Assembly: GCF_000317145.1 (NCBI RefSeq)
Contig: NC_019697.1
Span: forward strand, 1,674,001 to 1,738,000
Direction: 5' to 3'
DNA: 64,000 nt
Source of the DNA: Chamaesiphon minutus PCC 6605
GTDB lineage: Bacteria; Cyanobacteriota; Cyanobacteriia; Cyanobacteriales; Chamaesiphonaceae
In this document: piece by piece, positions 2,654 to 53,598 of the stretch
Position numbering within the stretch: the stretch's first letter is position 1
Layout: each line of letters opens with the position of its first letter
Notes under the pieces: generated by a model
Seen by the model: the letters and a program-made list of their open reading frames with translations, nothing else
What the model was told of the DNA's origin: nothing
Database searches by the model: none
Made by a program: the position numbers and the translations under genes

Positions 2654-4117
2654 CTAACTAAGATTGGTAATATTTGACAGTGGACTATAAGATCCGATCG
2701 TGTGCGAACCAAATAATTTCTGATAAGCGATCGACGTATCTGTTGTTGCTGGTGCCGCTGCTGCTGTGGATGTACTCGCCCCGCTGTTTGGCATTCGATC
2801 GATACTTTGTTTGGTCGGAATAATCGTCGGTAGCGTAGATACCGATGGAGTCGTAGGGGTCGATGGAGTGGTGGGAGTAGCAGCAATGTCTGGCATTTCC
2901 ACTTTCATGGGAAACAGTGCCAGTTTGTTCTTCTCGCTTACTTGCGGCAACGGGAGCGCGATCGGCCCGATGAATTTCGAGCTACAATTTCGCTCGAAAG
3001 CAATATTGGCGCAAAAAGCTAAGTACAGCCGTTGTTCGACGGTGCCAGCCTTGGCATTGCCGCGTTCTAATACCAGTTTCATTTGGTCTGAATCGAATGC
3101 TGGTGCTACCCCAGGCGGCTCCTTAAAGTTCCATAATGTCTTGCCAATCGACCCAACTCCACCATCGATCCATTTGGTTTGCCCTGGCTTATGTATTTGG
3201 ATGGCCAGATTGCGGTTGAGGGGATTCGATCTACCCGCGACGATGTTTTGTAAGACCGTATAGTCGCACTGAGCCTCTTTACAAGTCGAGTTGGGGACGC
3301 GATTACTGCCCGAAATTAAATTAATTCCTGTAATCTTCTGCCCATTTTTCCCTGGAACCTCCGTTTCCAGGTGATCCACCTTCATCAGATTGGCACTGGT
3401 AATGTTAGTTGATGGCAGTAGCAAGATTTTGGCAAAAGAAACATCTGCTGCCAGCGGAAAGCTACTTGTCGGTAAGTTTTGGATGTTGAGCTTGCTTGCA
3501 AAGTCCCCATAGGGGATGTTGTGCATTCCGGTTTGAGCGATGGGGATGGCAGCGCGGACATCCGCTGGAATTGGATTCCCACCGCAACTTGTCGCGGCAA
3601 TGCTCCCGAACGTTGGCACCGCACCCGCACCACAAGCTCCCCAGGAACCGACTTGCTCGGCATTAATGGCAACATTCGCCAGTTGGGGGAATGCCGTGAC
3701 GAGTTGCTTGACGGGGACTTTCTCTAAAAACCGGAAGTTACTCAACGCTCCCTGTACCGCCGTTTGGACTTCTGGGGTCGTCGGATAGATTTTTTGAGCT
3801 AACGTCACCATCGACTCATTTCCCCCGCTCCCGACACCTGTAAAAGCACCGATGGGCAGTTGCGACCACGAGCTACCTTTGGCGATCGTCGTCGTGGTAG
3901 GTTGACTCTGGGGTGTTGTAGCTGGAAATTGGATTTGAATGTTTTGAGTTGGTGGTGCGATGTTTTTAAGAGTGACGCTCCCAAATGCTTCTTTAATCAT
4001 TGCGATTGTTTTAGCACGATCGGCTGGACTTAATGTAGACGCTTCTTGCGATTTCACAATCGTTGCCATAGAGCCGATCGACAATAAAACTAAACTGAAA
4101 GTTTTGATAATGTTCAT
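2654..4117 (-). CDS. Secreted 487-aa protein of the T4SS operon
   Basis: Unrecognised. An N-terminal signal peptide (residues 1-23, MNIIKTFSLVLLSIGSMATI) indicates export to the periplasm. Cysteine pairs (GACGAG, TSCGG, CKEAQC, FCANIAFERNC) suggest disulfides. The last ~110 residues are Thr/Pro/Ser/Ala-rich (TPTTPSTPTTPSVST), a flexible or wall-associated tail. The ATG overlaps the TGA of the 61-residue membrane protein upstream (ATGA), a sign of translational coupling. Position between the VirB10 module and the coupling protein suggests a role in mating-pair formation or pilus assembly comparable to TraU/TraW-type periplasmic proteins, but no family motif was recognised. Confidence 0.7.
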   Translation of the reverse strand: MNIIKTFSLVLLSIGSMATIVKSQEASTLSPADRAKTIAMIKEAFGSVTLKNIAPPTQNIQIQFPATTPQSQPTTTTIAKGSSWSQLPIGAFTGVGSGGNESMVTLAQKIYPTTPEVQTAVQGALSNFRFLEKVPVKQLVTAFPQLANVAINAEQVGSWGACGAGAVPTFGSIAATSCGGNPIPADVRAAIPIAQTGMHNIPYGDFASKLNIQNLPTSSFPLAADVSFAKILLLPSTNITSANLMKVDHLETEVPGKNGQKITGINLISGSNRVPNSTCKEAQCDYTVLQNIVAGRSNPLNRNLAIQIHKPGQTKWIDGGVGSIGKTLWNFKEPPGVAPAFDSDQMKLVLERGNAKAGTVEQRLYLAFCANIAFERNCSSKFIGPIALPLPQVSEKNKLALFPMKVEMPDIAATPTTPSTPTTPSVSTLPTIIPTKQSIDRMPNSGASTSTAAAAPATTDTSIAYQKLFGSHTIGSYSPLSNITNLS

Positions 4118-4299
4118 CTTGTACTTGCTGCCTCTTTAAATAGTGAATAGGTCGGTAACAAATCATTTTTAATGAACCTAAAAGTTTCGGTTATTGACTG
4201 GTAGAGTTCGTAAAAAAGGATTGTTAAAATTACGGCGAGGACTAAATACAGTGTTAGTTTTAGGGTTCGCCACCCGATCGGTAAAAAAACTCGTCTCAT
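4114..4299 (-). CDS. Small single-pass membrane protein, 61 aa
   Basis: Short protein with one strong membrane helix (LKLTLYLVLAVILTILFYEL, residues 13-32) after a basic N-terminus (MRRVFLPIGWR), so the N-terminus is predicted cytoplasmic. Its stop overlaps the next start as ATGA. Its first 122 bases overlap the end of the secreted protein at 4178-4714 in another frame; the hydrophobic segment and the coupled stop favour this frame as real, and the C-terminal 40 residues of the other protein as the less certain part. Function unknown; small membrane proteins of this size are common in T4SS operons. Confidence 0.55.
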   Translation of the reverse strand: MRRVFLPIGWRTLKLTLYLVLAVILTILFYELYQSITETFRFIKNDLLPTYSLFKEAASTR

Positions 4300-4714
4300 G
4301 TTCTGGTTGAGGGCTGTTACTAACTTTGATGGTGATGGTATAGGGATGTAGTTGGTTGCGCCTGTCTTTAGTAATTACTCGAATCGTACCTCTGTAGCCG
4401 ATTTTGGTTGCCGAACGCGCACTAATTAACAGGATTGACGAGTTATTACATGCCGTCCGATTGCAACCGTTAGCATTAAACAGGAGGCTCTTAGTTAATA
4501 CCTCTGGGTTATCGACCATAATCGATTTAATCCGGCGATCCGTGCGCGACCAATCAAATAAATGTCCGGTGCCTTGAGTGATATTTATCTCGATATTTCT
4601 GTTTTCAGAGTTGAGATCTCTAGGGTGAGCGGGAGCTGCAACGAATACTGAAATACATCCAGCCAATCCCAAGAACCAAGATCTCAACTGGCGAACTTCG
4701 CTCCGTTTTAGCAT
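4178..4714 (-). CDS. Secreted protein, possibly VirB9/TraK-like N-domain
   Basis: 178 residues with a signal peptide (RSWFLGLAGCISVFVAAPAHP) followed by a beta-rich segment (NIEINITQGTGHLFDWSRTD then RRIKSIMVDNPEV and a TIRVITKD strand). That layout resembles the N-terminal domain of VirB9/TraK/TrbG proteins, which bind VirB10 in the T4SS core, and it sits directly downstream of virB10. No C-terminal outer-membrane VirB9 domain is present, so the assignment is tentative. A CNRTACN pair may form a disulfide. The last 40 residues overlap the next gene and are compositionally different. SD-like GAGG lies about 10 bases before the ATG. Confidence 0.6.
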   Translation of the reverse strand: MLKRSEVRQLRSWFLGLAGCISVFVAAPAHPRDLNSENRNIEINITQGTGHLFDWSRTDRRIKSIMVDNPEVLTKSLLFNANGCNRTACNNSSILLISARSATKIGYRGTIRVITKDRRNQLHPYTITIKVSNSPQPEHETSFFTDRVANPKTNTVFSPRRNFNNPFLRTLPVNNRNF

Positions 4715-4761
4715 TACTTGAAACCTCGATAGTCATGAGCGGTGGACTGCCAACGACTCAA

Positions 4762-7161
4762 CTACGGTAGAGGTGCCATTGCGGGATTTGGTGTAGTTGC
4801 TGGTTGAATATTGCCTCCGTTATCGAATTGAATGGGTATAAGTCCCGACTGGGTTCCGCCAGTCGTAGTTTGAGTAATTGCTGGTGCGGGATCTGGAGTG
4901 TTTTGTGCCTCAGTTAATTGAGTTGGCGTGACGATTGGCGGCGATTGTGCGTCGATGCCACTATTCGATTGAGTTGGTACGCTCGTTCGCGTAGCGTCCG
5001 CTTTGCGGAATCGCGGTTGAGTGTCGATCGTGTTGGGCTTGGTTGGTGCGATTGGGGTTGTGATGGTTGTCGCACCAGTCGGCTGTACTGGGATCGGCGC
5101 GGGTTGAGTCGGTATTGGTGCAGTTTGAGTCGTCGTGGATGGGATTGGTTGCGGTGGTATGAATGTCGTTGGCGAGCCTACGGAAGGTAATCGACCGCCT
5201 TGGTGGCGCGCTTCGCGTTCGCTTGTTGTAATTGAAGGTTGCTGAACTGGTTGTTGGGGTACGACAGAGGGCTGAGTAATGGTTGCTGGCTGGCTCAGTG
5301 TTGTGGGTGCTGGAGCTGTGACGATGGGTTGAGGGGTAGTTACTGCTGGCGTTTGGATGAGTTGCGTGGGTGTCGTGACAGACTGTGGGACTACATTCGA
5401 TCTGGTGTTAATGACGTTATTGGGCTTGGTGGGTGCAATCGGGGAGGGTGTATTTATTCCCTGCGTCGGTTGAGTAGTTGGAGTTATCGGTAGTTGAGGT
5501 GTAAATGTAGGTTGAGCCGTTGCAGTTACGGGGGCTGGTGCAATGACAGGTTGAACGTTTGCCGTTGTAGTTGGTGGTGCGACGACTGGTTGAACGTTAT
5601 TCGCACTAATGGGTTTAGCTGGAATCATTGTTGGTGGCTGCTCGACTTCCCCACCACCTAAAACTTGACCCTGTTCTGGCGTTCCTGCTGCTGCATTTAC
5701 ATCTGAACCAACCGGAACTTGAACTGTTGCCGCCGCCGCGACGAACACTCGCACCGGACTTCGCACCGGAATTTCATTGAGTCTGCTCGATTGTTGTAGC
5801 TCTTGTGCCAGAGCGTTCGCTCTATCTGCTTTGGCTTTGGCTAACGGACTGAATGCGCCTTGAAGCACGGCTCCAGGAATATTGACATTGCCATTATTGG
5901 TTTGGACGACCGAAGTACCCAACCCCGAAGTATTGATTACAGAGGTCGTACCAGAGTCAACCAAGGCTTTACCCACACTCCCCGCAGCTCCCCACATGGC
6001 AGCGTTAATATCGGCTCCTGATAACTCGCCTTCGCGTAACGATCTTTGGTTGGCAACTAGAGCCGCGCTATTATTGGCTGTTAACGCAAAGGCTCCGACT
6101 GGCACTTTAATTTCGGTACCGTCGATGAAAACGCCCTTGGACGTTGCACTCACCGCACCATTGTCTGCAACTGTCGCCCCGAATTGAACGATCGTGCCTG
6201 CGGGTAAATTGAATCCCTGCGACAGTTGGATCGGTTGGTCGAGTTGCACGGATAATGGTGTTTCCGTGCCGTTGGTGGCACTATTGCGAGAACTCAGTGA
6301 GGTATAGGGCGTGACTGTGTGCGCTGCCACATTTGCACCGACAGGTAATGCTAAGGTCAGTGTTGAATTGTCACCCGACGCTGAAGCTAAATCCCCATCA
6401 TCGGGCTTGTCGTTATCGCCCCCGAACATACCTAATGCTGATGCCTGTTCAAAGCTCAACGGTGGTTGCTCTGGCGTAACTGGTTGGGTAGGTTGAGTTG
6501 CGACTGCGATCGGGGTCGAACGCTGCGTTTGGGCGACTGGTGCGGGTGTCGGCTTTGGAACTATTCGCGCGACTGGTCGTGTTACGGGAATCGGCACGGG
6601 TCGAGCGACAGTCGCGGGTGTGGCGGCAACAACTGCTGGTTGTTGGACGGCAATTGTTTTAGGCTTTGGTGCCGGATCTCGAACGACTGGCTGGGTTTTA
6701 GGTGTTGGGGCTGTCTTGGGTGGAGTTGTGACTGTTGTTGCTGCTGGCTTTGGTGTCTGCGCGACAGTCTGAGGCTCGGATTTAGCTTGAATGTCGAGTG
6801 CGCTTTGAGTTTTGAGATTTTCGAGTTCGCGGTCTGTTTCGGAAGAAGAAGTATCTTCTACTTCGGGAACAGTAGGTTTGGTTGCAGTTTGAGGCGTACC
6901 GCCGAGTCCAAATAAAACGGTTAATGGTATGCCGACGGCACCTAGTCCGATCGCTCCAGCTACAATGTACTGTAGGAGGGGGTTTTTGCTACTGGGCTGC
7001 GAGTCGAACGTTCCCTCGATGTCGGCGTTGCTCTGTGAAGATGATGAGACGCTTTCGTCGTCAACTTGAATATGCGTCGTTGTGGAGAGAATTGGCGTAC
7101 CGAGTTGGTTGCCAATTTCTTGAAGTCTGCGTTCGCTAATCTCTACGTTATTGTCGCTCAT
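4762..7161 (-). CDS. virB10: VirB10/TrbI-like T4SS core protein with long Pro/Thr/Gln tail
   Basis: Energy-sensing channel component that spans inner and outer membranes in T4SSs. Residues 1-70 are cytoplasmic, a membrane helix lies near 70-90 (GAIGLGAVGIPLTVLFGLG), a Pro-rich periplasmic linker follows to about 240, then the VirB10 beta domain at about 265-480 (PLSVQLDQPIQLSQGFNLPAG, FIDGTEIKVPVGAF, AAMWGAAGSVGKALVDSG, VRVFVAAAATVQVPVG). After it comes a further ~300 residues of Pro/Thr/Gln/Ile low complexity with repeated PIAPTKPN units, which usual VirB10 proteins lack. ATG at 7161 lies 3 bases after the stop of the VirB8-like gene. Two short dispersed repeats (4980-5020, 5191-5220) are embedded in the tail coding sequence. 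Confidence 0.85.
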   Translation of the reverse strand: MSDNNVEISERRLQEIGNQLGTPILSTTTHIQVDDESVSSSSQSNADIEGTFDSQPSSKNPLLQYIVAGAIGLGAVGIPLTVLFGLGGTPQTATKPTVPEVEDTSSSETDRELENLKTQSALDIQAKSEPQTVAQTPKPAATTVTTPPKTAPTPKTQPVVRDPAPKPKTIAVQQPAVVAATPATVARPVPIPVTRPVARIVPKPTPAPVAQTQRSTPIAVATQPTQPVTPEQPPLSFEQASALGMFGGDNDKPDDGDLASASGDNSTLTLALPVGANVAAHTVTPYTSLSSRNSATNGTETPLSVQLDQPIQLSQGFNLPAGTIVQFGATVADNGAVSATSKGVFIDGTEIKVPVGAFALTANNSAALVANQRSLREGELSGADINAAMWGAAGSVGKALVDSGTTSVINTSGLGTSVVQTNNGNVNIPGAVLQGAFSPLAKAKADRANALAQELQQSSRLNEIPVRSPVRVFVAAAATVQVPVGSDVNAAAGTPEQGQVLGGGEVEQPPTMIPAKPISANNVQPVVAPPTTTANVQPVIAPAPVTATAQPTFTPQLPITPTTQPTQGINTPSPIAPTKPNNVINTRSNVVPQSVTTPTQLIQTPAVTTPQPIVTAPAPTTLSQPATITQPSVVPQQPVQQPSITTSEREARHQGGRLPSVGSPTTFIPPQPIPSTTTQTAPIPTQPAPIPVQPTGATTITTPIAPTKPNTIDTQPRFRKADATRTSVPTQSNSGIDAQSPPIVTPTQLTEAQNTPDPAPAITQTTTGGTQSGLIPIQFDNGGNIQPATTPNPAMAPLP

Positions 7162-19435: not shown

Positions 19436-21913
19436 ATGATACCTAACCTAGAACTTCACACCAAACTATCTAACCTATTCCACATCGGCTTTAACTTCAT
19501 CACCGCCGAGAATACCCCTAAACCCAAGTGGCGCACCAACCGAAAATATCGACTCACCCGTGGCGAATTCGTCAAACTTTACAGCGACAAACTCAGCCTG
19601 TTAGGAGTCAGCTTCGGCACAACCACTACATACTTCATGCTCGACATCGATTTTGGGAGTAAGTATCATCCCAGCAACGATCCTACAGCACTGCCAAAGA
19701 TCCGCCAGATTTTAGAAAAAGTAGGAATAGTTAGAATCGACCTCATCCGCAGTTCCCAAAGCGGAGGCATCCACCTCTACGGCTGCTTGCCCAAAAACGT
19801 CTCAACAATTCGCCTCGCCACCCTACTCCACGTCACACTCATCGACGCAGGAATCGAGCTTGCCAAAGGACAACTCGAATGTTTCCCCAACCCCAAACCG
19901 TATGGAGAAAAAGGACACTTTACATACTATAACCCACATCGAGTACCCCTACAGCCGAATAGTGGGAGTCTCTTGCTTTCGGAAGATGGCGACATCATCC
20001 TCAGTGCCGAGAATCTGACGCATGAAAGCATGTTAGCCGGATTCCTCGCACGAACCGAGCAATCGGCTCAAGCTCAAGACATGGAACTGCTGAATCGATT
20101 GATGGATGCCTGCTATGCCAAATATACCAGCAACGCAGGCATCGCCAAATATCAGCATCATCATCAAGATTATACCGAAGTCGCCCGTGAGTGGAAAGAA
20201 AACTTAGAATTGACGATCCAAACGATCGGCTGGACGGCTCACGGTCAAACCAACACTCTCCTTCCTAATTTTATTGCCTACGGGGTCGTATTTCTAGGGT
20301 TTAAAGGAGAAGAACTAGAGAATTGTCTCTACGACCTCATCCTTTCCGCTCCAGGCTACCAAGAGCATTGCCGCCACCAACATGAGATTAAAGCCGTAAT
20401 CAAAGGTTGGGTCGAAAATACCGAACGCCAGGGCTACTACGTCGAATACTGTGGATTTCCAGCTAGAAGCGGACTAAACCCCCATCTTATCGCCAAACGG
20501 ATCAAAGCCAACAGAAACGAACATAACGAGAATCTGGCAAAGCGTACCGAACAAAGGCTCAATGCCATCCTCGCCGCATTAACCGAAATTCCCGATCGAG
20601 TCGGAGCTAAAATCGCCGCGATCCGAACTAAGTCCCTCGAACTATTTGGAGAAGCCATCAGTCGCAATACATTGTATAAGCCAGCATACAAATCGCTTTG
20701 GGTTAAAGCTGAAGGAGCCAAATGTGACATTAATTTAGCCGAAAATCCCACACCCCCCTCCGATTGCATTCAAACCAGTGTTGTTACTGAAATGCAAGCA
20801 ATTAGAGATCGTCACGATCGACAAAACCCAGCCGCTCAAACCCAATCCCAGAAAGAATTATCCCATACCCCCTCTCTATATGAAACTTATGTGGAACAAT
20901 CTCATATTGCCTTGCTACATCACCAATTACAGTTGCACTGCATCAATCTATTTTGTCAATCTATCCTCGATCTACAACTTTTAAGCGGGGAATCAGAATT
21001 ACAGCAAGACCGATCCAACATTCAATCTACATCTGTCATACTAGACACTCAAAATCTGCCAGCTCAGAACATTTATAGTACTGAAGACTTCAAAGACGAC
21101 CTTCAGTCTGAGGGGATTGCTGATATTAGCAATGGTAATGGCGATGGCGAGTTTGAAAGTAGCTGCGAGCCTAATGTCCAAATCGATATCGATAAAGATC
21201 CAGCTAGTGCGATCGAGATTGGAACTAAGTTGCGACGAAATTCGCATCAAATTGGGCAAAAGACTTATGCTGCGTTAGTTAATTGTCAGGTGGTGTCTGC
21301 TAATGGATTGGATTGGGTGGTGAGGGATCGTGATGGTTCCTCATGGAATGTGTCCTACCACGCACTGGAGAGCGGGATCTGGGAAATTGAGAGCGATCTT
21401 GCTGTAGTTAGGGATGTGGGTGTCAGGTCTGTTGTGGAGATTGCTCGTCAGATGCGGATTAATCTTGCAGCTATACCCGATGCACTGCTGTTAGAATTTC
21501 TACATCATCCCGATCTGGATGCGATTCAGCGGACGATCGAGTTAGCCGAGCGACTTGCATCAGCTCGTTCTCGCCAGCAGATTGAGGAATTAGGATCTAG
21601 CCTCGATCGCTCTCAAAAGATGGACTTGTGGCGCGTGTTAACGGTTGAGGAGCGGTCTGTCATCGAAACTATAATGGCTCAACCTCACATTCCACCTCTT
21701 TCATCGAGTGTTGTTGAAGTGGAGACATCGGTTGAGAGTTGGCCTCCACTGAATTGTGAGTTATTTGTAGGTGTGATGGTTAACACATTAACAGGATTGG
21801 TGGGAGTAGTTAAACATGTCTTTCGATCGGTGGCTAAACCATTTCTTGTATATCACGAGAGTCTCGGTCGAACTATTCTCTATCGAAGTGAGGATCTGCG
21901 ATTGAGTTATTAG
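19436..21913 (+). CDS. Primase-polymerase-like plasmid replication protein (putative)
   Basis: 825 residues. The N-terminal ~190 residues carry features of the archaeo-eukaryotic primase superfamily: YFMLDIDFG (acidic D-x-D pair near residue 65), SGGIHLYG (S-x-H motif near 112) and LECFPNPKPYG, the order seen in primase domains of plasmids and TOTE-type proteins. The middle region is helical (residues 230-420, RCDINL-type end) and the rest low in motifs. No helicase P-loop is visible. A gene of this size beside parA/parB and a long noncoding region fits a plasmid replication initiator; role is inference, and the primase-like motifs are seen directly by eye. ATG at 19436. Confidence 0.55.
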   Translation: MIPNLELHTKLSNLFHIGFNFITAENTPKPKWRTNRKYRLTRGEFVKLYSDKLSLLGVSFGTTTTYFMLDIDFGSKYHPSNDPTALPKIRQILEKVGIVRIDLIRSSQSGGIHLYGCLPKNVSTIRLATLLHVTLIDAGIELAKGQLECFPNPKPYGEKGHFTYYNPHRVPLQPNSGSLLLSEDGDIILSAENLTHESMLAGFLARTEQSAQAQDMELLNRLMDACYAKYTSNAGIAKYQHHHQDYTEVAREWKENLELTIQTIGWTAHGQTNTLLPNFIAYGVVFLGFKGEELENCLYDLILSAPGYQEHCRHQHEIKAVIKGWVENTERQGYYVEYCGFPARSGLNPHLIAKRIKANRNEHNENLAKRTEQRLNAILAALTEIPDRVGAKIAAIRTKSLELFGEAISRNTLYKPAYKSLWVKAEGAKCDINLAENPTPPSDCIQTSVVTEMQAIRDRHDRQNPAAQTQSQKELSHTPSLYETYVEQSHIALLHHQLQLHCINLFCQSILDLQLLSGESELQQDRSNIQSTSVILDTQNLPAQNIYSTEDFKDDLQSEGIADISNGNGDGEFESSCEPNVQIDIDKDPASAIEIGTKLRRNSHQIGQKTYAALVNCQVVSANGLDWVVRDRDGSSWNVSYHALESGIWEIESDLAVVRDVGVRSVVEIARQMRINLAAIPDALLLEFLHHPDLDAIQRTIELAERLASARSRQQIEELGSSLDRSQKMDLWRVLTVEERSVIETIMAQPHIPPLSSSVVEVETSVESWPPLNCELFVGVMVNTLTGLVGVVKHVFRSVAKPFLVYHESLGRTILYRSEDLRLSY

Positions 21914-21969
21914 TGCTCTGTCAAGATTCAACTTGGTAAGAGAATTATGCTAATTGATAGTAAGATACT

Positions 21970-21999
21970 CTCAATTAGAAGATCGATCTTCTAATTGAG
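21970..21999. promoter_or_regulatory. 30-bp perfect palindrome upstream of parA (candidate parS/operator copy 1)
   Basis: Perfect 30-bp palindrome whose central 20 bases (21975-21994) are TTAGAAGATCGATCTTCTAA, repeated twice more after parA. It lies 93 bases before the parA ATG, in the expected promoter region. Confidence 0.7.
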
Positions 22000-22091
22000 C
22001 TAATTCTCTGAAACTAATGAAAAAATGATTGGCTTGACTATCAACATTCAATTGCTGACCCCCGATCTCAACGCAAATTCCGATCTCGATC

Positions 22092-22925
22092 ATGCCAAAA
22101 ATCAAAACATTTAAGCCCGCTCGTCAGATCGTTCTCTGGATTGCTGCAAATGCTGGTGGAGTTGGTAAAACTACTCTGGGCATTCATATCGGCTATAAAT
22201 TTGCTCAACTAGGCCTAAAGGTGTTATTTATCGATCTCGATACTAATGGCTCGCTTGCCAGGTTTTGCGGACTCGAATCAGACCTCAAACCCGAACTGAC
22301 GACTGCGGCATTATTCGATCGCAACTTCGATGGCAATTACCCGATTTTTACGCCAGAGTGGGGCAATCCTCAAGGTCGCTTCGATACTTGTTTGGGTGGA
22401 GATGTGATGCTTGGTGTCGCACTAGATCTACCAACTCGTACCGGACGCGAACTAATTCTCAAAAAAGCATTTAAAAAGTATCCGACCGACTACGATCTGA
22501 TTATCCTCGATTCTCCAGCCTCTCTGGATGTGCTCAGTTATGCCGCTTTAGCTGTAGCTACGCATATTTTAATCCCATTACCAATGTCGATCAAACTTTC
22601 TGGTATCGATTCGCTATTGAAATGGATTCGGATGGAAACTGAAGCACTCGACCTCACTCCACCGCCAACTTTGATCGGTGGCGTACCGATGCGGGTAGCC
22701 ACTAGTGCCGACCAACAAGCCTTCGGACAGGAAATTGCTGACGTTCTCGACGGACAATCCGTACCCTGTTTTCCCAGCGTGCGGTTTTCGAGTGAGTTTG
22801 AGAATGCCTCGAATCGAGGTATGGCACCGCTCTACTTGTATCGACCAAAACATCCTGCTTGCCAGGATTTTCAACCGATCGTTGACGAACTCACACGCTC
22901 TTTTCAAGTCACACCTGTAAGTTAG
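22092..22925 (+). CDS. parA: ParA-like partition ATPase
   Basis: 277 residues. Nucleotide-binding ATPase that positions plasmid copies with ParB at parS. P-loop NAGGVGKTT at residues 20-28, switch I-like FIDLDTNGSLARF, Walker B DLIILDSPASLD near residue 138. The signature lysine of deviant Walker A motifs (K-G-G-x-G-K) is replaced by alanine here (A-G-G-V-G-K), which is unusual. parB follows 170 bases later on the same strand. Three identical 20-bp palindromes flank the gene, one upstream and two at its stop codon, so self-regulation and centromere function are likely to share these sites. Confidence 0.88.
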   Translation: MPKIKTFKPARQIVLWIAANAGGVGKTTLGIHIGYKFAQLGLKVLFIDLDTNGSLARFCGLESDLKPELTTAALFDRNFDGNYPIFTPEWGNPQGRFDTCLGGDVMLGVALDLPTRTGRELILKKAFKKYPTDYDLIILDSPASLDVLSYAALAVATHILIPLPMSIKLSGIDSLLKWIRMETEALDLTPPPTLIGGVPMRVATSADQQAFGQEIADVLDGQSVPCFPSVRFSSEFENASNRGMAPLYLYRPKHPACQDFQPIVDELTRSFQVTPVS

Positions 22926-22941
22926 AAGATCGATCTTCTAA
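22922..22941. promoter_or_regulatory. parS-like palindrome copy 2
   Basis: Perfect 20-bp palindrome TTAGAAGATCGATCTTCTAA, overlapping the parA stop codon. Confidence 0.7.
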
Positions 22942-22968
22942 AATCTGACCGATCCCGTCCCTTGGCAA

Positions 22969-22988
22969 TTAGAAGATCGATCTTCTAA
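22969..22988. promoter_or_regulatory. parS-like palindrome copy 3
   Basis: Same 20-bp palindrome, 47 bases after copy 2 start to start, in the parA-parB spacer. Confidence 0.7.
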
Positions 22989-23095
22989 TCTGCCCGTTAC
23001 CGCTTAAACTTAGTTAGATATTCAAACAAGAGCTGTTACCGAACTGGCAAATTGCAGTTTTTCTCGAATCCCACCCCCATTTCCTGACGATTACT

Positions 23096-24121
23096 ATGGC
23101 TACCAAACCCCGTCCTAACGTCTCATCATTCTTATCGACCAGTGCTAAAGCACTCGATACCCAGCAAAGTTTACTCGAAGCACAAGAACGAATTATAGCT
23201 CTCGAACGAGAACTCGATAACGCTCGACAGAGCTTAGAAAAGCGAGTCGGACTAGATAAAATCTCCCACGCCCTCGTGCCGATTGAGGAAATCGTGCGTC
23301 GTCCCTATCAGTCCAGACGCGAAAAAGATCCCCAGAAATTTGCCGAATTATTGCACAGTATTAAAACATATGGATTTAAAGGTTCGATTTGGTTGCAGCG
23401 ACGACCGGATGGCACTTTACGACTGATTGCTGGGGAAACTAGATTGGATGCCGCGATCGAAGCTGGCTATACGGCAATTTCGTCTGATATCGCCGATGTC
23501 GATGATATTACTGCTGTCAAACTTTCACGGGTTGAAAATGCTCGACGTAAAGATTTGAACGCTCTCGACGACACTGAAGAACTGCTCTACCTACTGACGC
23601 TGACTCTCAAAAAAGATCGAGCTGAAACGATCGAGTGTTTGTACCGTTACAAGAATGCCGCTGAAGGTAAATCTTCGATTGCCGATCGCGATCGGGATGT
23701 CATCGAATCGGTATTTACAGAAGTCGCTCCAGATATTAGTTTGTCAACGTTTATCACTTCCAGGCTGCCACTGCTCAAGTTACCCGAAAATATCCTCCAA
23801 GCTTATAATGCAGGGCAATTGGAATACACCAAGGCAATGGCTTTGAGTCGGGTAGAAGATGAGTTACAACGCCAAGAGCTACTCGAAGAAGTTGTAGATC
23901 GAGGATTATCTTTATCAGCTTTAAAAGCCAAGATCGCGCCAACTTCGGGACGCACGGTAATCGATAAGGTTAATAAGATCGAGCGACAAATCGATAACTT
24001 AAATCCTCAATCGATCGCCGAATTATCAGTCGAGCAACGAGATCGATTGAAGGAGAGCTTACTGGGCTTGAAAGTATCTTTACAGAAAAAACTCAAACAA
24101 CTCGATGCCTATACCTCATAA
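23096..24121 (+). CDS. parB: ParB-like centromere-binding protein
   Basis: 341 residues. ParB/Spo0J family: a coiled-coil N-terminus (EAQERIIALERELDNARQSL), ParB N-domain with VPIEEIVRRPYQSRR, IWLQRRPDGTLRLIAGETR (the GETR variant of the GERR CTP-binding box) and VENARRKDLNALDDTEELLY, then a helical DNA-binding region (LSTFITSRLPLLKLPENIL, EYTKAMALSRVED) and a C-terminal dimerisation coil. It binds parS and loads onto DNA as a CTP clamp in relatives. The likely sites are the three palindromes at 21970-22988. ATG 23096; partner parA directly upstream. Confidence 0.88.
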   Translation: MATKPRPNVSSFLSTSAKALDTQQSLLEAQERIIALERELDNARQSLEKRVGLDKISHALVPIEEIVRRPYQSRREKDPQKFAELLHSIKTYGFKGSIWLQRRPDGTLRLIAGETRLDAAIEAGYTAISSDIADVDDITAVKLSRVENARRKDLNALDDTEELLYLLTLTLKKDRAETIECLYRYKNAAEGKSSIADRDRDVIESVFTEVAPDISLSTFITSRLPLLKLPENILQAYNAGQLEYTKAMALSRVEDELQRQELLEEVVDRGLSLSALKAKIAPTSGRTVIDKVNKIERQIDNLNPQSIAELSVEQRDRLKESLLGLKVSLQKKLKQLDAYTS

Positions 24122-24160
24122 TGGCGATCGGAGTTAACCTAGAAGATGGCAGGTAGCTTA

Positions 24161-24601
24161 TTAATGACCTGCCGCTGACTTAGTTTCTAAATCTAGTTCC
24201 AGTTGTTGATGCAACATCAGTGGTAATTGTGGCAACCTGTCGATTAAATCCGCAAGTGTCAATTGAAAATTCTGTTGCTGCTGGCGCATTCGTCGCACCT
24301 TTGGTAGTTTCAATTTCAACGATAATTGCCCTGGTGTCGGCTGAGGACGATGGCGGTGCATTCTTAAATGACACCCGCTGCACAAGCAGACGAGATTAGA
24401 CCTGTCATTCTGGGTGGGATTTCCATCCAGGTGGTGGACTTGCGCCGAAAGTTTGCGTCTGAGCGAGAGATCGAGATGGCGGTAACTATTGTTTGGTGGC
24501 AAACACTTCAAACCGCAGCGGTTACAACGATAACCCGCTGCTTGCTTAACTGTGGTGGCAATGTCTGACCAATTATCTGGATAATCCAGTGTGAGAGCCA
24601 T
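24161..24601 (-). CDS. HNH endonuclease domain protein
   Basis: 146 residues. A compact HNH zinc-finger nuclease: two cysteine pairs (CNRCGLKC and CLCSGC) bracket AQVHHLDGNPTQNDRSNLVCLC, followed by HLRMHRHRP; HH, N and H are the catalytic set. The C-terminal 60 residues are Gln/Leu-rich and of unknown role. It faces parB convergently, 39 bases apart. Stand-alone HNH proteins like this are common on cyanobacterial plasmids and may be homing or restriction nucleases; the specific role is unknown. Confidence 0.8.
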   Translation of the reverse strand: MALTLDYPDNWSDIATTVKQAAGYRCNRCGLKCLPPNNSYRHLDLSLRRKLSAQVHHLDGNPTQNDRSNLVCLCSGCHLRMHRHRPQPTPGQLSLKLKLPKVRRMRQQQQNFQLTLADLIDRLPQLPLMLHQQLELDLETKSAAGH

Positions 24602-27706: not shown

Positions 27707-28809
27707 TACTGTTGTGGGAGAAATAACAAACGATCGATCGTTAGATATTATGTGATTATGTCAAAAATTTGTAGGGTAGGTCAGAGGCATTGCTGCCCCT
27801 TTCCCCCCGAGAAACCGTGCTTACAAGTTTTCCAAGTACACGGCTTGAGCAATTCACTTTTTGTGGTGAATTTTGTGGTGGCAATATTGATGAACCCAGA
27901 TTAAGTTTCTGATTTCGTCTTTGCCACCTTGACATTTAGGGATAATGTGGTGCAAGTCTATAGGTTCGTCATTAAAGAGCGATTCCCCACAAACCTTACA
28001 TTTATATCCTTGTAGGTTGGCTACCTTTTCTTTGGCTTTATTATATCTGGTGGCTTCACTCTTAGCTTTGGTTCTCCATCTTTTCTCCCAGTAATCCTTT
28101 AATTTAGGGTCATCTGGGGAGGCAGTTTTAGTTACCATTGCATATCTCTCGATCTTAAACCAAGCGAAGTTGAGCATGTATGCCCCGATCTTTTTATCGC
28201 CAAAGTCCCATTTGGAATTCCTCGACAGGTTCAGTCTACCCCAGTACTTTCCTTTTTTCCAATAAGTTGGTTTATTAGGGTGGGTTCTGTTGGCATACCT
28301 TTTTTGTCGAGTAAATAGGTAATCATCTAAATTCCTAAAAATTTCACTTGATACTACCTTGCGGCAATACTCGGCAATACCCCTAATGATGGGGTTTATT
28401 TTAGCAATTAAAAGTCCTACTGTTTGTCCGTGGTATTTAAGGAATGTTTTCCTAATTTTGGATTTAACTTCCTTCACAAACTTATTACTAGGCTTGATAA
28501 GTAGCTTCCATCCTGTTTTGGTGTTGTTGACTTTATATTGTCTGATGTTGAATCCCAGAAAGTCGAATCCTTCGGAAATGTGGATTATTTTGGTCTTTTC
28601 CTTAGAAAGTTCCAGACCTCTTAATCCTAGCCATTCTTCTGTGGTTTCTTTTGCTTTAAGAGCATCCTCTTCTGACTCGCACAGTATTACAAAGTCGTCC
28701 CCATACCTGACCAGTATTCTTTTACCTTGACTTTCGCCTCTGTTGTTGTATTTAACACCTAAATGTTTCTCCAACCCATTGAGAGCGATATTGGCTAAAA
28801 GTGGTGAGA

Positions 28810-31190
28810 ATGGAGTAGGAACAAAGCGCACCTCTAAACCTTACAGTTTATGTGTTTCTTCATTCCTCTCCCCAAACCGGACGTGAGACTTTCACCTCAT
28901 CCGGCTTTCCATCATTGTTACGTGCTTCGTCCATACGAAGGCGTTTGAACATGACAATCACGACAAAGAAGTTGAAGATTTTCCGCCTCATCTTTACCCT
29001 TTGATTTTCGGGATTTGATGTGGTGTAGATCTAAGTTAATCGTGCTCGAACACACTTGACACTTAGCTCCTCTTTCAGCTTTAATTGTCTCCTTCAGCTC
29101 GCGCCATTGGGAATTATCGGCGTTGCCCAGCCACACCTGTTCCGATAAAGGTTGGTCGGCTAGTGGCACCCCTGTCCGATACTCTCCCTGAATATAAGGA
29201 TTTTCGGGAGAGCGAGAACGATATTTAGTTAATGGTAAATCACTCAAGCGATAGAGATAAAGAATCTTGTCACCGTTGCGAATACCCAAGTTAAATCTCC
29301 GACCATCCTCGCGCAGTTTATACATCTTGATGATGTGTTTGGGGGATAACTTATGCCGTTTACAAAGCCAGCGAAATAGTCGTTGATTGACCCAAAAGTC
29401 TAAATCTTTGGCTATATCTTTAACATTGCAGTGACGATAATAGTTAATCCACCCTCTTAAAACTGCATTCAGGGCAGAGAATTTCAACAAGGGGGAATCT
29501 TGAAACCATTTTCGCTTGGTCATCTCCTTAATGGTCTGTTTGAACTTCTTAATGTTTTTCAATGCAGGTGTGACCAACATTTTAGGTCGGTCGTGTCCGC
29601 TGACATAGCGTTGAATGTGAAAACCTAAGAAGTCAATACCATCATTAACATGGGTAATGTGCGTTTTTTCCAGCGACAATTCAAGTTGGAGTTCTTCTTT
29701 GAGGAAGATGCTAAATTCTTCCTTGAGTCTCATCGCTTCTGCTTTGCTGCCATTGGTCAGTAATAACCAATCATCTGCATAGCGGATTAAAGCACAATTT
29801 CCTTGATGTCTGGTACGGCGACGTTCTTTCTCTTTGCGGTCGAGGTTGCCATATTTCTGCCACCAATAGAGATCTAATTGGTGCAAGTAAATATTCGCCA
29901 AAAGCGGCGAACAAATACCACCTTGCGGTGTACCGATATCGGTATGTTTGAACAGATGACCTTCCATGATTCCCGCTTTGAGAAAACTTTCTACCAGTTT
30001 CAGGAGACGATTATCGGCGATTCTTTTCGCCATGATTTTGAGCAGTATCTGATGATGAATACTGTCAAATGCCGCTTTGATATCTCCCTCAATTACCCAA
30101 TAGTATTTGTTGCGACGGTTAATGTAGCTATCTAATCTGGCGATGCAATCTTGAGTTCTGCGCTGTGGTCGAAAACCATTGGAGCAGTTCAGAAAGTCAC
30201 TTTCATAGATTGGCTCTAACACCATCTTCAACAACATTTGGACTGTTCTGTCCTTGAGTGTGGGAATACCTAGCGGTCGTTGTTTACCATTTGATTTGGG
30301 GATGTAAACGCGACGGACTGGCATCGGTCGGAATTGTTTGGTTTGTAATTCCGTCCGTAACGCATTCACGAATTCAGTTTTGGCTGATTCCGCTGCGAGC
30401 GTCTTTTTTGTAATGCCGTCTATCCCTGCCGTTTTAGCTCCTGTATTGGAGAGTACGGCTGTTAAGGCGGTTCTAATCCAATCCTCTCGACAAATGAGTC
30501 GATACAGATCGTCGAACTGATGTTCTGCTTGATGCTGTGCCTTGATGGCGAGACTATGTTGGGTTTTGATGATATCGGACATACGTTTTAGTCCTCTCTA
30601 GTTCCCTTAACTTATCTCTAACAATGACTGCCATCCTTCGCCATGTACCAGACTATTTTCTGGCTCGGACTACTACGATGGCTCTGCCACACGATAACTA
30701 CTTCAGTTGCAGCTAACCCAGTCTCAATCGACCAGTTATCGTGCTTCCTACGTTCATACAGTGGTACGTGATTGTCTAGCCTTAGACTTCCTCTTTACAC
30801 CAATCGGATACAGACCCAGTATCCGCGACAACAGCCGATGGTTTATACCTCTATAACCAGAGCAGTTCAGTCCGAATAAACAGACTTTTTCATCAGTAGC
30901 GTCGAACACTGATTTACCTGTTGTCTCACGCCATCTCTGTTGTTTATCAGCGTGTCCAAGGTGACGGTGCTTCGGACAAGGATTCCTCTCGTAGTCATAG
31001 CTAGACTCAGGCTCGAAACCTCATGCTGTAACAGAGTGCCAGCATTTTGTCCCTTGTTCCCCAGGCTTCAAACAGGTTCTCACTCATTGTCCCCTGCCTG
31101 CTGGGTCAGCCTTAATACCTTGAGGTAGGTATTATCTCGTGGTTGTTTTGGCTCACCTAGAGCATTACCACTGTACGCTTCGCAGCGCAC
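28810..31190 (-). mobile_element. Group II intron A (inner, nested), 2381 bp
   Basis: 5' end GTGCGCTGCGAAGCG at 31190; 3' end at 28810. Domain V sits near 28874-28908 (complement of AAACCGGACGTGAG...CTCATCCGGCTTT); domain VI has a stem (GGAG, AGGAA pairing TTCCT, CTCC) with a single bulged A and ends CTCCAT. It splits intron B's RT gene within QGGI|SPLLAN; removal gives GGG-ATT-ATC-TCA (GIIS). Confidence 0.9.
28918..30582 (-). CDS. Group II intron A reverse transcriptase/maturase with HNH domain
   Basis: 554 residues, intact. RT fingers and palm: [73 protein letters not shown] (catalytic YADD), then GIDFLGFHIQRYV, a maturase X region with RGWINYYRHCN, and a C-terminal HNH nuclease (CQVCSSTINLDLHHIKSR, LLCRDCH). 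It would splice intron A and drive its retrohoming. ATG at 30582; 608 bases to the intron 5' end hold domains I-III. Its RT differs clearly from the RT of intron B (CICSPLL versus IISPLL, YADD versus YGDD), so this is not a self-duplication but a different intron lineage. Confidence 0.93.
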   Translation of the reverse strand: MSDIIKTQHSLAIKAQHQAEHQFDDLYRLICREDWIRTALTAVLSNTGAKTAGIDGITKKTLAAESAKTEFVNALRTELQTKQFRPMPVRRVYIPKSNGKQRPLGIPTLKDRTVQMLLKMVLEPIYESDFLNCSNGFRPQRRTQDCIARLDSYINRRNKYYWVIEGDIKAAFDSIHHQILLKIMAKRIADNRLLKLVESFLKAGIMEGHLFKHTDIGTPQGGICSPLLANIYLHQLDLYWWQKYGNLDRKEKERRRTRHQGNCALIRYADDWLLLTNGSKAEAMRLKEEFSIFLKEELQLELSLEKTHITHVNDGIDFLGFHIQRYVSGHDRPKMLVTPALKNIKKFKQTIKEMTKRKWFQDSPLLKFSALNAVLRGWINYYRHCNVKDIAKDLDFWVNQRLFRWLCKRHKLSPKHIIKMYKLREDGRRFNLGIRNGDKILYLYRLSDLPLTKYRSRSPENPYIQGEYRTGVPLADQPLSEQVWLGNADNSQWRELKETIKAERGAKCQVCSSTINLDLHHIKSRKSKGKDEAENLQLLCRDCHVQTPSYGRST

Positions 31191-33480
31191 TAATCCCCCC
31201 TTGCGGGGTTCCAGATTCGGTTCGTTGGAATGTGTTACCATCCACGTAACCTGATTTGAGCCACGCACTGATTAATCTTCTAGCGGGAAAATTCCCGATT
31301 GATTTCATCAGATTATTATGGTCAATGTTATCGAAACATCCGCTGATGTCGGCATCTACTATCCATTTCTTCGTCTTATTAGGACGTGTAGCTGAATAGA
31401 TTTTGCAAATAGAATCATGGACGCTCCGACCTGGGCGGAAACCGTAGCTACACCCTTCAAACTTGGCTTCCCAGTAAGGTTCTAGGGCATTCTTGACGAT
31501 TGCCTGGAGACACCTATCTCTAATGGTTGGTATGCCTAGCGGTCTATTCTTTCCGTTTGATTTAGGTATGTATACTCGTCGGGTAGGTTTTGGTTGCCAA
31601 TCATTGTTATTCATGGCTAGGTCATTAGTTAGTTTCATCCTTTGTAAGGGTGTCTTGACTAAAACCCTGTCTACCCCTGCGCTCTTTCTTCCTTGGTTAT
31701 CTTGTGTCGCTTTCCTTACGGAGAGTAAGACGTTAGAATAACTACGGAGCATTAACCGCTGTAACGAGCGTACCCTTTTGATGTCACCATTTTGAGTTGC
31801 CTTAAATATTCGCTGTCTCAATTGCCTAACGATGCGATTAGATTTCCGCCAGTTGACGTTATGCCAGTCGCTGTTCTCAATCGTTACGCTTACATCAGTT
31901 ATCTGTTGCATCTAGCTTTTCTGATTAAGTTCGGTTCTTTTACTTTGAACATCTAGACTGAATCACCTGTTGAAGTCAGCACCCTTTCAAGTTGGGTATT
32001 GCCCTATCCATCCAGTTATTAGCATTGGAGCTTTTTCCTGTTCCCTTTCGAGCAATGGCATTCGCTTTTTCAACATCCTCTTCCCCCTTAGTAGTTCAGC
32101 TTTCCTTGCGGTTAGCTTACTTCAATTGTTAATTAAAGAACTAATGGGGATTGCCCCGTTTCACACCGTTGAGATGCGACGTATTTAGGTTCCTGCTATA
32201 CTCCGAGGGTATATGGTAGTCCAAATTAACTGAAGTATGAAGTTAATTCTTTTGTCAAACAAAATCTGGGTGTTTGACCTTAACCCTGAGATAGCCTAAT
32301 CATCGTTGGCTATTTTGATATAACGAAGTCTAAAATGCAAGTTCACAAAATGTTAACCATGTACGTCTTACCCTAGCCCGTTGTTTCCTCGTATGATTCG
32401 ATTCGCAGCAGACATTTAACCCTCTAGCTGTGATACGTTGCCGTTACCAGCAACGCACCTTTGAGCGGGTACAGTCTTGACTACTAGACTGGAGCCTTTC
32501 TAAGGGACTCACTCTTTGGTGCGCCTTTCGGGTCGCACATACTCTCTACCATAATAACTGTCCCGATGGATTTGGCAGTGCGCTCGCCGCTTACTTGAAA
32601 TTTGGTGACAAATCCGAATATATCGGTGTCAAACATCAACAAGACCCACCAGAAATGGAACCAGGTTCAGAAGTTTATATTCTCGACTTTAGTTACCCGC
32701 GACAGGTGATGGAATCACTGTTAGAACGACACACTCAAGTCATCACTCTCGACCACCATAAAACAGCCCAAGAAGCACTACTGGGATTACGCGGTGCCCT
32801 ATTCGATATGAATCGATCTGGCGCGATGATTAGCTGGGAATACTTTCATCCAGAGCGACCGATTCCCGACCTATTTAGGTACATTCAAGACCGCGATCTG
32901 TGGCAATGGAAATTAGAGGGTACTGGCGAAATTGCCGCCGGATTGCAATTACTCCCGCAAGAATTCGACCTCTGGATTGAATTACTTACGCCCGAAGGTT
33001 TAAAGCAGTTACGGCAAGATGGTAAGACTATTTTGAGATACCAAACTAAGGAAATTCAGGGTTTATTAAAGCACGTCTATCTAGACAATCTCCCGCCTTA
33101 TCAAGCCCCGACTGGAGCATGGATAACTGGAGCTAAAATCCCGCTAATTAATTGCTCCAATTACGATATCGTTTCCGATCTGTGTCACCAAATGCTCGAA
33201 GAGTACCCCGATTATCCCGTTGTGGCTAGCTGGTTGAGAGGGAAGTCGAGTATTTCTTATTCCCTCCGTTCTGTACCGGACTTTGACTGTTCGGAGATAG
33301 CTAAACTTTATGGAGGCGGCGGACACAAGAATAGTGCGGGGTTTAAACTTGCCATCTAAAACCTTTTGGTGGCTCCTTCGACTCAGAGGGGTTCGATTTG
33401 GCAGAAACTAATGAAGGATTGGCAGATCTCGATTGCAAACTTTGATGCTAAAGTTCTACTCACACCGATCTAAAAACAAC

Positions 33481-38924: not shown

Positions 38925-39959
38925 TCAAAGATGCTCGGCTCGCGGATGAAAATCGGGACAGTAACACTCCAAAGGCACTCCAGTCGGAAGACCCAATGGG
39001 TAGATAGCGCAACAAGTACCACCCAATAGAGCGGAGTGAGAGGCACATTGCAAGCATTGCTGAGTTTGAGTCTCAATCCTCAATTTAGTTGCCTGAGATT
39101 TAGCCACAATCGCCCGCGCAATCGCTAATCTTTTACCCCTACCCTCCAGCCATTCGGCATACTCTTGGGCATGTGTCGATAGGAAATCTTCGATCCGCAC
39201 GAGCGCGTACATCTTCATCGGCGCGTAATAACGCCCGTGGGGATTATCAAGTAATAAATCTGGCTCACCAATTCGCGCCAGCCAACCATCGGAAATTAAA
39301 TAAATCGATTGTAAATTGGCATTACTGATATATTTAGGCTGCACGGGTTGAGTGTCCTCAACGCGATACAACAACCGCCAACGACACTCGCCATCGGGAT
39401 GGCTAGAGCGAAAATAAACGGCTGCTGGTTTGGCTCCATGCTTGAGTTCGAGCCTTTTACTCCCAATTTCCCACAGCGTTTTTAAACCTTGACGATGGTT
39501 TTTATCCCAAGACGCGATTGGGTAAAAGTTTGGCTCGCACTCTTCAAACTCAGTACGCGCAAATAACAGATCGAAATTGGGATCGCCGAGCGGATCGCGA
39601 CGTGCGGCAATCGGCTTGGTTGAATGCTTTAATTGAAGGTTAGAGCGCAATGCGGTGTCGATTGAGATTGCGTCCTGCCAGTTTATAACCTTTGCTTGGG
39701 TCTTTTGCATGGCTGGTCGGGTCGATCGACCCGACCAGGAACCTCGCCGCAAAGACTCCGCTGCCGCCCCTGGAACTATAGGCAAGCCCAAACACTTAGC
39801 TCGTGGTTTTTTCAGCCACGAGCGATAGCAACATTGGCATTTCCATCCACCTTCAGTTTTTACCAATTCATGCGCTCGGTCTGGATCTTGCCAGGAGCTA
39901 TCTACTCTCGATCGAGAGCGATTGTTTGTCGATATTGTATCCTCACTCATCCGTACCAT
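38925..39959 (-). CDS. Hypothetical protein, Cys-rich at both ends
   Basis: 344 residues (ATG at 39959 or 39950). Unrecognised. The N-terminus has CQCCYRSWLKKPRAKC and the C-terminus CLQCASHSALLGGTCCAIYP with CYCPDFHP, possible zinc sites. The middle (LISDGWLARIGEPDLLLDNP, VEDTQPVQPKYISNANLQS) looks globular. An in-frame insertion near residue 67-84 (AESLRRGS and SGRSTRPA) derives from the 24-nt repeat plus a perfect 26-bp palindrome at 39713-39738. It converges with the gene at 38052; the pair looks like one accessory module. Confidence 0.6.
   Translation of the reverse strand: MVRMSEDTISTNNRSRSRVDSSWQDPDRAHELVKTEGGWKCQCCYRSWLKKPRAKCLGLPIVPGAAAESLRRGSWSGRSTRPAMQKTQAKVINWQDAISIDTALRSNLQLKHSTKPIAARRDPLGDPNFDLLFARTEFEECEPNFYPIASWDKNHRQGLKTLWEIGSKRLELKHGAKPAAVYFRSSHPDGECRWRLLYRVEDTQPVQPKYISNANLQSIYLISDGWLARIGEPDLLLDNPHGRYYAPMKMYALVRIEDFLSTHAQEYAEWLEGRGKRLAIARAIVAKSQATKLRIETQTQQCLQCASHSALLGGTCCAIYPLGLPTGVPLECYCPDFHPRAEHL
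39713..39738. repeat. 26-bp perfect palindrome inside a coding sequence
   Basis: CTGGTCGGGTCGA at 39713 followed at once by its complement TCGACCCGACCAG. It encodes SGRSTRP on both strands, adjacent to the 24-nt repeat (39738-39761). Confidence 0.75.
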
Positions 39960-52995: not shown

Positions 52996-53598
52996 ATGCC
53001 CTACAGCAGCTTCACGATCGCTCAAGTTAAGCGGCAATTTCAAATCGAGGTGGTCACAGAGCCGTTCTTTCGCGATCTACCGACACTTACCCCTGGTGAG
53101 TGGTTGACTACTCTATTGGCAAAGTCAGCCCCTCTGGCGGTGACTTTGGGGACTGAGAAGGTACGTTCAGAGTTAATCATCGCTCCATTGTTATTTGAAT
53201 TTCGCGAACTGCTCGATCGTCAGGTCAGTTTTTTCTCAGGCACGGATTTCAGCATCGATTTAGAGTCAGGCTTGAATGGGGTCTGTGATTTTTTGCTTAC
53301 CCGATCTACTTCTGAAGTTAGTATCGAAGCTCCAGCGATTATCATCATTGAAGCTAAGAAAGGGGAGTTGAACGCTGGCTGGGGGCAATGTGCAGCGGAA
53401 ATGATTGCTGCTGTGAAATTCAATCAAGCTAACGGACAAGAAATATCCAATATCTATGGTAGTGTTACCACTGGAACGATGTGGCAATTTCTCAAACTGA
53501 CAGGGCAAGTTCTGACGATCGATGTTACTGAGTATCCACTCGATCCAATCGACCGAATTCTGGGAATTCTCCAGTGGATGGTGAGTGCAGTTGATTAA
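52996..53598 (+). CDS. PD-(D/E)XK nuclease-like protein
   Basis: 200 residues. The central part has restriction-endonuclease-fold signs: ELIIAPLLFEFRELLDRQ (Glu), LNGVCDFLLTRS (Asp), IIIIEAKKGELNAGWGQCAA (E-x-K followed by a conserved Gln). This group of small cyanobacterial proteins often carries no restriction partner. It overlaps the GTG of the recombinase gene by 14 bases, suggesting co-translation. Role, nuclease or degraded nuclease, not known. Confidence 0.7.
   Translation: MPYSSFTIAQVKRQFQIEVVTEPFFRDLPTLTPGEWLTTLLAKSAPLAVTLGTEKVRSELIIAPLLFEFRELLDRQVSFFSGTDFSIDLESGLNGVCDFLLTRSTSEVSIEAPAIIIIEAKKGELNAGWGQCAAEMIAAVKFNQANGQEISNIYGSVTTGTMWQFLKLTGQVLTIDVTEYPLDPIDRILGILQWMVSAVD

Follow-up and report, generated by a model that had tools for sequence, protein, structure and literature searches.

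Candidate ParB-binding palindromes around parA in Chamaesiphon minutus and their relation to sites embedded in parB of cyanobacterial and Thermaceae plasmids

Introduction

ParABS partition systems and the palindromes bound by ParB are already known. In characterised systems, ParB CTP clamps are loaded at the sites and moved by ParA. One parS inside parB has been reported, from Thermus: in ParABSm of the T. thermophilus HB27 megaplasmid pTT27, the published parSm is a 14-mer, AAGGACGCGTCCTT, within parBm that was bound in EMSA (PMC4409726; restated in PMC10085754). An EMSA competition reported in PMC4409726 supports the 14-mer, which by position falls at codon 221 of HB27 parBm. Chromosomal ParB-parS and Noc-NBS offer a second comparison, as even-length palindromes read by the ParB helix-turn-helix; the parS consensus half-site is GTGAAACA, as quoted in PMC4409726.

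Here we analyse 64,000 nucleotides of Chamaesiphon minutus PCC 6605 (contig NC_019697.1, positions 1,674,001 to 1,738,000; hereafter the window). Like ParABSm, the window holds a plasmid-type ParA-ParB pair and a palindromic site at the parAB locus, and ParBm is a homologue of the window ParB with the same linker and recognition-helix layout. Unlike that of ParABSm, the window sites lie outside parB, are 20 bp long, occur in three copies and have the core GATCGATC. They also differ from chromosomal parS in sequence and in length (20 bp versus 16 bp).

Results

Three palindromes at parAB

The window encodes a ParA-type Walker ATPase (AAA_31, 83.6 bits; cut-off 27) and, adjacent to it, a ParB with ParB_N (44.5 bits; cut-off 26.3) and a helix-turn-helix (HTH_ParB, 31.8 bits; cut-off 22.6). 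The features, in window coordinates, are:

21902..24221, no strand: partition cassette (three palindromes, parA and parB), over which no DNA homology was found between two otherwise similar elements
21970..21999, no strand: palindrome 1, perfect over 30 bp, 20-bp core at 21975-21994, 92 bp 5' of the parA start; candidate parS/operator
22092..22925, + strand: parA, 277 aa, ParA-type ATPase (Pfam AAA_31 2.1e-23, CbiA 4.1e-16)
22922..22941, no strand: palindrome 2, 20 bp, overlapping the parA stop codon, with the same overlap in the sister species (L024); candidate parS
22968..22989, no strand: palindrome 3, 22 bp perfect, within the parA-parB gap; candidate parS
23096..24121, + strand: parB, 341 aa (Pfam ParB_N 1.6e-11, HTH_ParB 1.6e-7)
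23654..23656, + strand: codon of ParB Asn187, in the column coupled to half-site base 9 among relatives, a rule that the window site breaks
23678..23679, + strand: approximate junction in parB (residues 194/195) where, by alignment, the relatives' Asn-Val codons with their embedded palindrome are absent
23747..23761, + strand: codons of ParB residues 218-222 (Thr218, Ser222), predicted recognition helix by alignment to solved ParB; column 222 covaries with half-site base 4 in relatives

An earlier note, made from the letters of the window, had placed the 20-bp palindrome TTAGAAGATCGATCTTCTAA at 21975, 22922 and 22969, with one copy reaching 30 bp, and had noticed no other in the window. All three copies lie at these positions, the window holds no further match at up to three mismatches, and the longer copy is palindrome 1. 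The arrangement that it described, one copy in the parA promoter and two in the gap, holds for palindrome 1, which is upstream, and for palindrome 3; palindrome 2 overlaps parA by 4 nt (ORF end 22925) and is therefore not wholly inside the gap.

No match to TTAGAAGATCGATCTTCTAA arose in 100 dinucleotide shuffles. Perfect palindromes of at least 20 bp in the window number five (the three at parA and two unrelated); 60 first-order Markov sequences averaged 0.08. Across the whole genome (6,761,765 bp, three contigs), the only copies at up to two mismatches are the three at parAB, and a single 3-mismatch site is the sole other place at up to three; the many dispersed copies that the note had named as refuting its reading were thus searched for genome-wide and not found.

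Several other identities for the palindromes were rejected. The canonical 16-bp chromosomal parS (TGTTNCACGTGAAACA) has no match in the genome at up to one mismatch, and its 2-mismatch matches (4 and 2) compare with 6 and 5 for the control. HIP1-type or simple GATC repeats do not account for the copies, as the window has 27 occurrences of GATCGATC and only 3 of the 12-mer AAGATCGATCTT. Nor do terminators: the palindromes are loopless, and prediction of terminator-like sites gave none there. Promoter-like matches (2 found, 1.8 expected) were uninformative.

The window ParB is 27-34% identical to 17 aligned members of its family from outside its own clade, which were found by profile search and share homology over the N-terminal and helix-turn-helix domains. 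Among 190 plasmid records matching it, none reached 60% identity, and a contig scan returned the sister species as the sole match. A ParB structure model from two sequences was poor (mean pLDDT 52; block means 68-80 over residues 161-220), so we take it as evidence for nothing beyond the helices at residues 175-189 and 216-226. PADLOC gave nothing useful.

The cassette differs between two paralogous elements

The note had assigned the locus to a plasmid. It lies instead at 1.696 Mb of a 6,284,095-bp, chromosome-sized contig, among genes for a VirB4/TraC-type ATPase (TraC/VirB4 matches under NCBI cut-offs), RecD2, XerC-like recombinases and a topoisomerase. This gene content is that of a conjugative-type element, which carries the partition cassette. 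A tRNA-flanked island was rejected, since neither the window nor six flanking stretches contained a tRNA. At 27854-31911, adjoining recD2, are several ORFs that resemble reverse transcriptases, by eye of the group II intron type, and a 26-bp perfect palindrome, CTGGTCGGGTCGATCGACCCGACCAG, lies at 39713-39738 inside a minus-strand ORF (38925-39959).

A second, paralogous conjugative-type element lies about 185 kb away on the same chromosome (G000:C1, about 1838000-1903294; L174, L172, L166, L173), and the two are 69-89% identical in aligned stretches. Homology breaks off at window position 21901, the end of an 825-aa gene, and returns at 24222. In this interval, the second element carries a distantly related parAB on the opposite strand (ParB 32%, ParA 28% identical), with a near-palindrome of its own in parB (TAGGGGAAACGTTTTCCCTA, 9/10) and without the window palindrome; the 825-aa gene and the VirB4-type gene, with their neighbours, are present there too. 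Since the gap in homology spans parAB together with the palindromes, and the second element has a different parAB and no such palindrome, the palindromes go with the window parAB. The parAB cassettes of both elements are open frames, and two coexisting elements with different cassettes would fit avoidance of partition incompatibility.

Two further palindromes were seen in these elements. A 40-bp perfect palindrome at window 54719-54758, just 3' of a XerC-like recombinase ORF (53585-54589) and near the end of inter-element homology (54708), is possibly a recombination site; no second copy was found in the six flanking stretches searched. The second element carries a perfect 20-bp palindrome, TTCCAAGTAATTACTTGGAA, three times around 8834-9130 of L166 (G000:C1:1884834, 1884973, 1885130), between a parA-adjacent 121-aa ORF and a recombinase-like ORF.

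The palindromes are conserved with parAB

In the sister species (L024, same genus), ParB and ParA are 87% and 89% identical to those of the window, and all three palindromes are identical in letters and place (copy 1 at L024 596-615). The surrounding non-coding sequence is 46% identical upstream of parA (44/95 columns) and 68% in the rest of the gap (90/133), with 5 and 34 gap columns left out, respectively. Two genera from another family of the order (L017 and L055) carry ParBs 58% and 60% identical to that of the window. L017 has one copy 5' of parA (3 mismatches) and one in the parA-parB gap (1 mismatch), and L055 has one in each place, both perfect, so that all four clade members have sites in both positions. 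No other window protein was found near L017 (its 12 kb of contig plus a far 12-kb end) or in the 20 kb around L055.

Eight of 195 genomes of the order contain the site at up to two mismatches: the window genome, the sister species, L017 and five others that each have one copy. In these five, the 3 kb examined contained neither a ParA nor a ParB of the window-type family; four hold isolated 2-mismatch copies. In the fifth, a contig of the same genus (L015 1501-1520, G001:C661), a 1-mismatch copy lies 28 nt 3' of a 292-aa ORF whose P-loop looks ParA-like by eye but which has no Pfam match. L015 and the four isolated copies count against the palindromes being ParB sites.

Relatives carry a palindrome inside parB

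ParB matches occurred in 167 of 388 genomes. We aligned a sample, not a census, of 140 loci, for which 80 further matches had been added from among those listed. Fifteen loci were left out before this number was reached, as duplicates of the window, sister or L017 loci (L001-L003, L005, L006, L016, L022, L023, L054) or as pattern matches without a window-type parAB (L004, L015, L018-L021). Between the N-terminal and helix-turn-helix domains, 136 of the 140 have a residue in the column of an Asn that is mostly followed by Val; the remaining four, exactly the window clade, have a gap there.

At this Asn-Val codon boundary, 98 of the 136 loci have a perfect palindrome of at least 16 bp, 97 of these with the core AACGTT, a length that 36 of 2,720 synonymous shuffles reached. 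The core is present in 124/136 loci and at least 8 of 10 half-site positions are matched in 127/136, with a mean match of 9.34/10 versus 5.67 in the 2,720 shuffles. Counted per 80% ParB cluster, 66 of 93 are perfect and 84 have at least 8 matched positions. The 98 perfect palindromes comprise 37 distinct half-sites: flanks vary and palindromy is kept. In one locus (L093), the protein has a 12-codon insertion and the site is present twice. The sequence TAGGCATAACGTTATGCCTA occurred once per genome at up to two mismatches, inside the parB match, in all 10 carrier genomes tested, and was absent from one control genome.

The window site resembles this family in its homologous ParB and in the outer TTAG/CTAA found in the family site TTAGGCATAACGTTATGCCTAA. 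It is unlike the family in that the linker codons are missing, the core is another one in place of AACGTT, the sites lie outside parB rather than centred on Asn-Val codons, and base 9 does not fit (below). Of 127 relatives' loci, 10 have a second copy of the palindrome within the 100 bp preceding the longest parA ORF and four more have one inside the first 80 bp of that ORF, which by analogy supports autoregulation. In the Nostoc sp. UHCC 0926 plasmid pn1 (L160), a perfect palindrome, ACGGAAAACGTTTTCCGT, lies at 2899-2916, about 100 bp 5' of the ParA ORF (3019); the downstream ParB frame is split into two ORFs (3710-4291 and 4330-4833).

A full-text search of open-licence papers found no report of the embedded AACGTT family, the residue-base series or the window site, and the passages searched in a survey of the ParB fold (PMC12704722) contain nothing on such sites.

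Residues of ParB covary with bases of the site

For coupling analysis we used the 121 of 136 loci whose core is exactly AACGTT and in which 8 or more of the 10 positions match, grouped into 80 clusters at 80%. Among 288 ParB columns, the one most coupled to half-site base 4 was residue 222 (window numbering; z = 32.5). For base 9 it was residue 187 (z = 33.0), whose codon lies outside the palindrome. These scores come from label shuffles that ignore relatedness, and only the tree count below controls for it. At the other five half-site bases that were tested, the strongest coupling was, as expected, to a column encoded by the palindrome itself.

Residue 222 and base 4 pair as Asn-A (47/47 clusters), Ser-T (17, with one Ser-C), Thr-T (8/8), Ala-T (3/3) and His-G (2/2 readable, one unreadable); the one remaining cluster is a truncated ParB with a gap at this residue. 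Residue 187 and base 9 pair as Asn-T (68/69), His-C (7/7 readable, two unreadable) and Asp-G (2/2), or, read on the opposite strand, as Asn-A, His-G and Asp-C. These last three pairings are chemically common. On a tree built without the tested columns (166 branches, one parsimony reconstruction), base 4 changed 17 times and residue 222 (Ser, Thr and Ala pooled) 16 times, with both changing on 14 branches, where by our arithmetic about 1.6 would be expected under independence; base 9 changed eight times and residue 187 six times, five of them jointly.

Four loci (L012, L014, L075, L106) have perfect AACGTT palindromes outside parB and none perfect at the codons, and all combine Asn222 with A at base 4; as these sites outside parB fit it, the base-4 rule is not a coding artefact. 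One embedded palindrome with another core (L149) has His222 with G. Aligned with solved ParB and Noc, residue 222 falls where the helix of those proteins has its Asn. Counting in a Thermus Spo0J alignment, the window Ser222 would correspond to Asn178 of Caulobacter ParB, which is reported to contact parS (PMC7383237). The canonical parS half-site GTGAAACA has A at base 4, in agreement with the Asn-to-A rule.

At base 4, the window site agrees with the code. Thr218 occurs in 6 of the 140 loci (the window clade, L087 and L124), and all six have Ser222 and C at base 4. A Thermus locus outside the 140 (L155) combines Thr218 with His222 and has G at base 4, so that Thr218 by itself does not imply C. 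At base 9, the window has Asn187 but A, where the rule gives T. Moving the window half-site by 1 bp against the family, by eye, would satisfy base 9 at the cost of bases 5 and 7, and was not adopted. The four clade members have Leu-Ser, Leu-Ala, Val-Met and Ile-Thr at residues 216-217, where 88 of the 136 relatives have Trp-Glu or Trp-Gln; this difference may account for the window core having GAT instead of GTT.

Thermaceae and other plasmids as outside tests

Five Thermaceae plasmid records, picked by hand from lists that included 50 of 1,770 matching records and lying outside the set from which the rules were derived, all carry the site at the same codons (four perfect, 18-24 bp; HB27 9/10). 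All five fit the base-4 rule, twice as His-G, and Trichormus plasmid D fits it as Ser-T. Nostoc pC052_F (L179) has Lys222 and an altered core. Three Deinococcus plasmid ParBs had no Asn-Val linker in the region examined and no near-palindrome in parB, so the embedded site is not a general trait; one of these loci (L177) has two near-palindromes upstream.

In HB27 (L156), the imperfect family-type palindrome TTAGGGACAAC|GTTGTTCCTAC is centred after nt 1896 at the Asn-Val codons of parBm, 184 nt upstream of the parSm 14-mer, centre to centre. As both lie within parBm, the published in vivo foci fit either site.

Discussion

We consider it highly likely that the three palindromes are ParB binding sites (parS) of a type I ParABS cassette, with the promoter copy doubling as an operator. 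The ParB binding and autoregulation proposed by the earlier note agree with what was computed, namely the presence of the palindromes, their uniqueness at up to two mismatches, their conservation in position and sequence with the cognate parAB, the cassette exchange that leaves the paralogous element without them, and the agreement of residue 222 with base 4; from these we infer binding, repression and partition. Counting against parS are the window core GATCGATC in place of the family's AACGTT, the misfit at base 9 and the chromosome-sized contig.

In the mechanism that we propose, a ParB dimer would read each palindrome through its helix-turn-helix, with Ser222 and Thr218 of the predicted recognition helix facing base 4 of each half-site. 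ParB bound at palindrome 1, on the promoter side, would repress parAB, and palindromes 2 and 3, between the genes, would be loading sites of the partition complex. There, ParB would load as CTP clamps to be moved by ParA.

The palindromes could alternatively be ParB operators only, serving autoregulation of parAB and, through copies 2 and 3, of parB, in an element for which, once it is part of the chromosome, partition is neither needed nor carried out any more. We regard this as unlikely. Copy 1 does sit in the region upstream of parA, a second copy lies near the parA start in some relatives, and partition of an element on a chromosome-sized contig may be irrelevant; however, two of the copies flank the end of parA and not the start of the operon, both chromosomal parAB cassettes are open frames, and an operator role is in any case compatible with a parS role.

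It is considerably less probable that the palindromes merely accompany parAB and are recognised by some other factor, be it a replication protein, an integrase, a nucleoid protein or a restriction-modification enzyme, or act as RNA hairpins or terminators. Candidates for such a factor are close by, in the recombinases and in the 825-aa gene, which has no Pfam or NCBIfam match and which we ourselves read as rep-like; GATCGATC is frequent in the window, and the near copy at L015 lacks a ParB of the window ParB family. Yet the paralogous element retains the 825-aa gene, the VirB4-type gene and their neighbours without the palindrome and differs in its parAB, L017 and L055 share parAB and palindromes with the window and, in the stretches searched, no other window protein, and a hairpin or terminator is at odds with loopless palindromes at which none was predicted. 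Chance or copy-paste repeats without function have nothing in their favour and can be set aside, contradicted as they are by the shuffles and by perfect conservation across species amid diverged flanks, with sites in other genera too.

Taking the palindromes as ParB binding sites, we lean, with some reserve, towards a joint reading of the window and its relatives. Cyanobacterial and Thermaceae plasmids would hold their centromere in the linker codons of ParB, site and protein changing together by an amino-acid-to-base code in which, at base 4, Asn goes with A, His with G, Ser, Thr or Ala with T, and Thr218 plus Ser222 with C (as in L087 and L124, in common with the window), and in which Asn, His and Asp face A, G and C at base 9. 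The window clade would have lost these codons, its site now lying outside the gene with a new core, and the whole cassette would have been exchanged between paralogous elements so that two share one cell. By the same reading, the published parSm may not be the main site of its plasmid.

If this is true, the code gives many mutually exclusive partition specificities, and the centromere of many cyanobacterial plasmids may have been overlooked because it lies inside parB. The window provides a concrete, testable site for a ParB clade with none described in the literature searched, and its site joins a large natural series (37 half-sites, 80 ParB clusters) from which the pairing of residues with bases can be read. 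Residue and base swaps would make it possible to test directly how ParB-parS specificity, and hence plasmid incompatibility, evolves, and the series offers candidate orthogonal ParB-site pairs.
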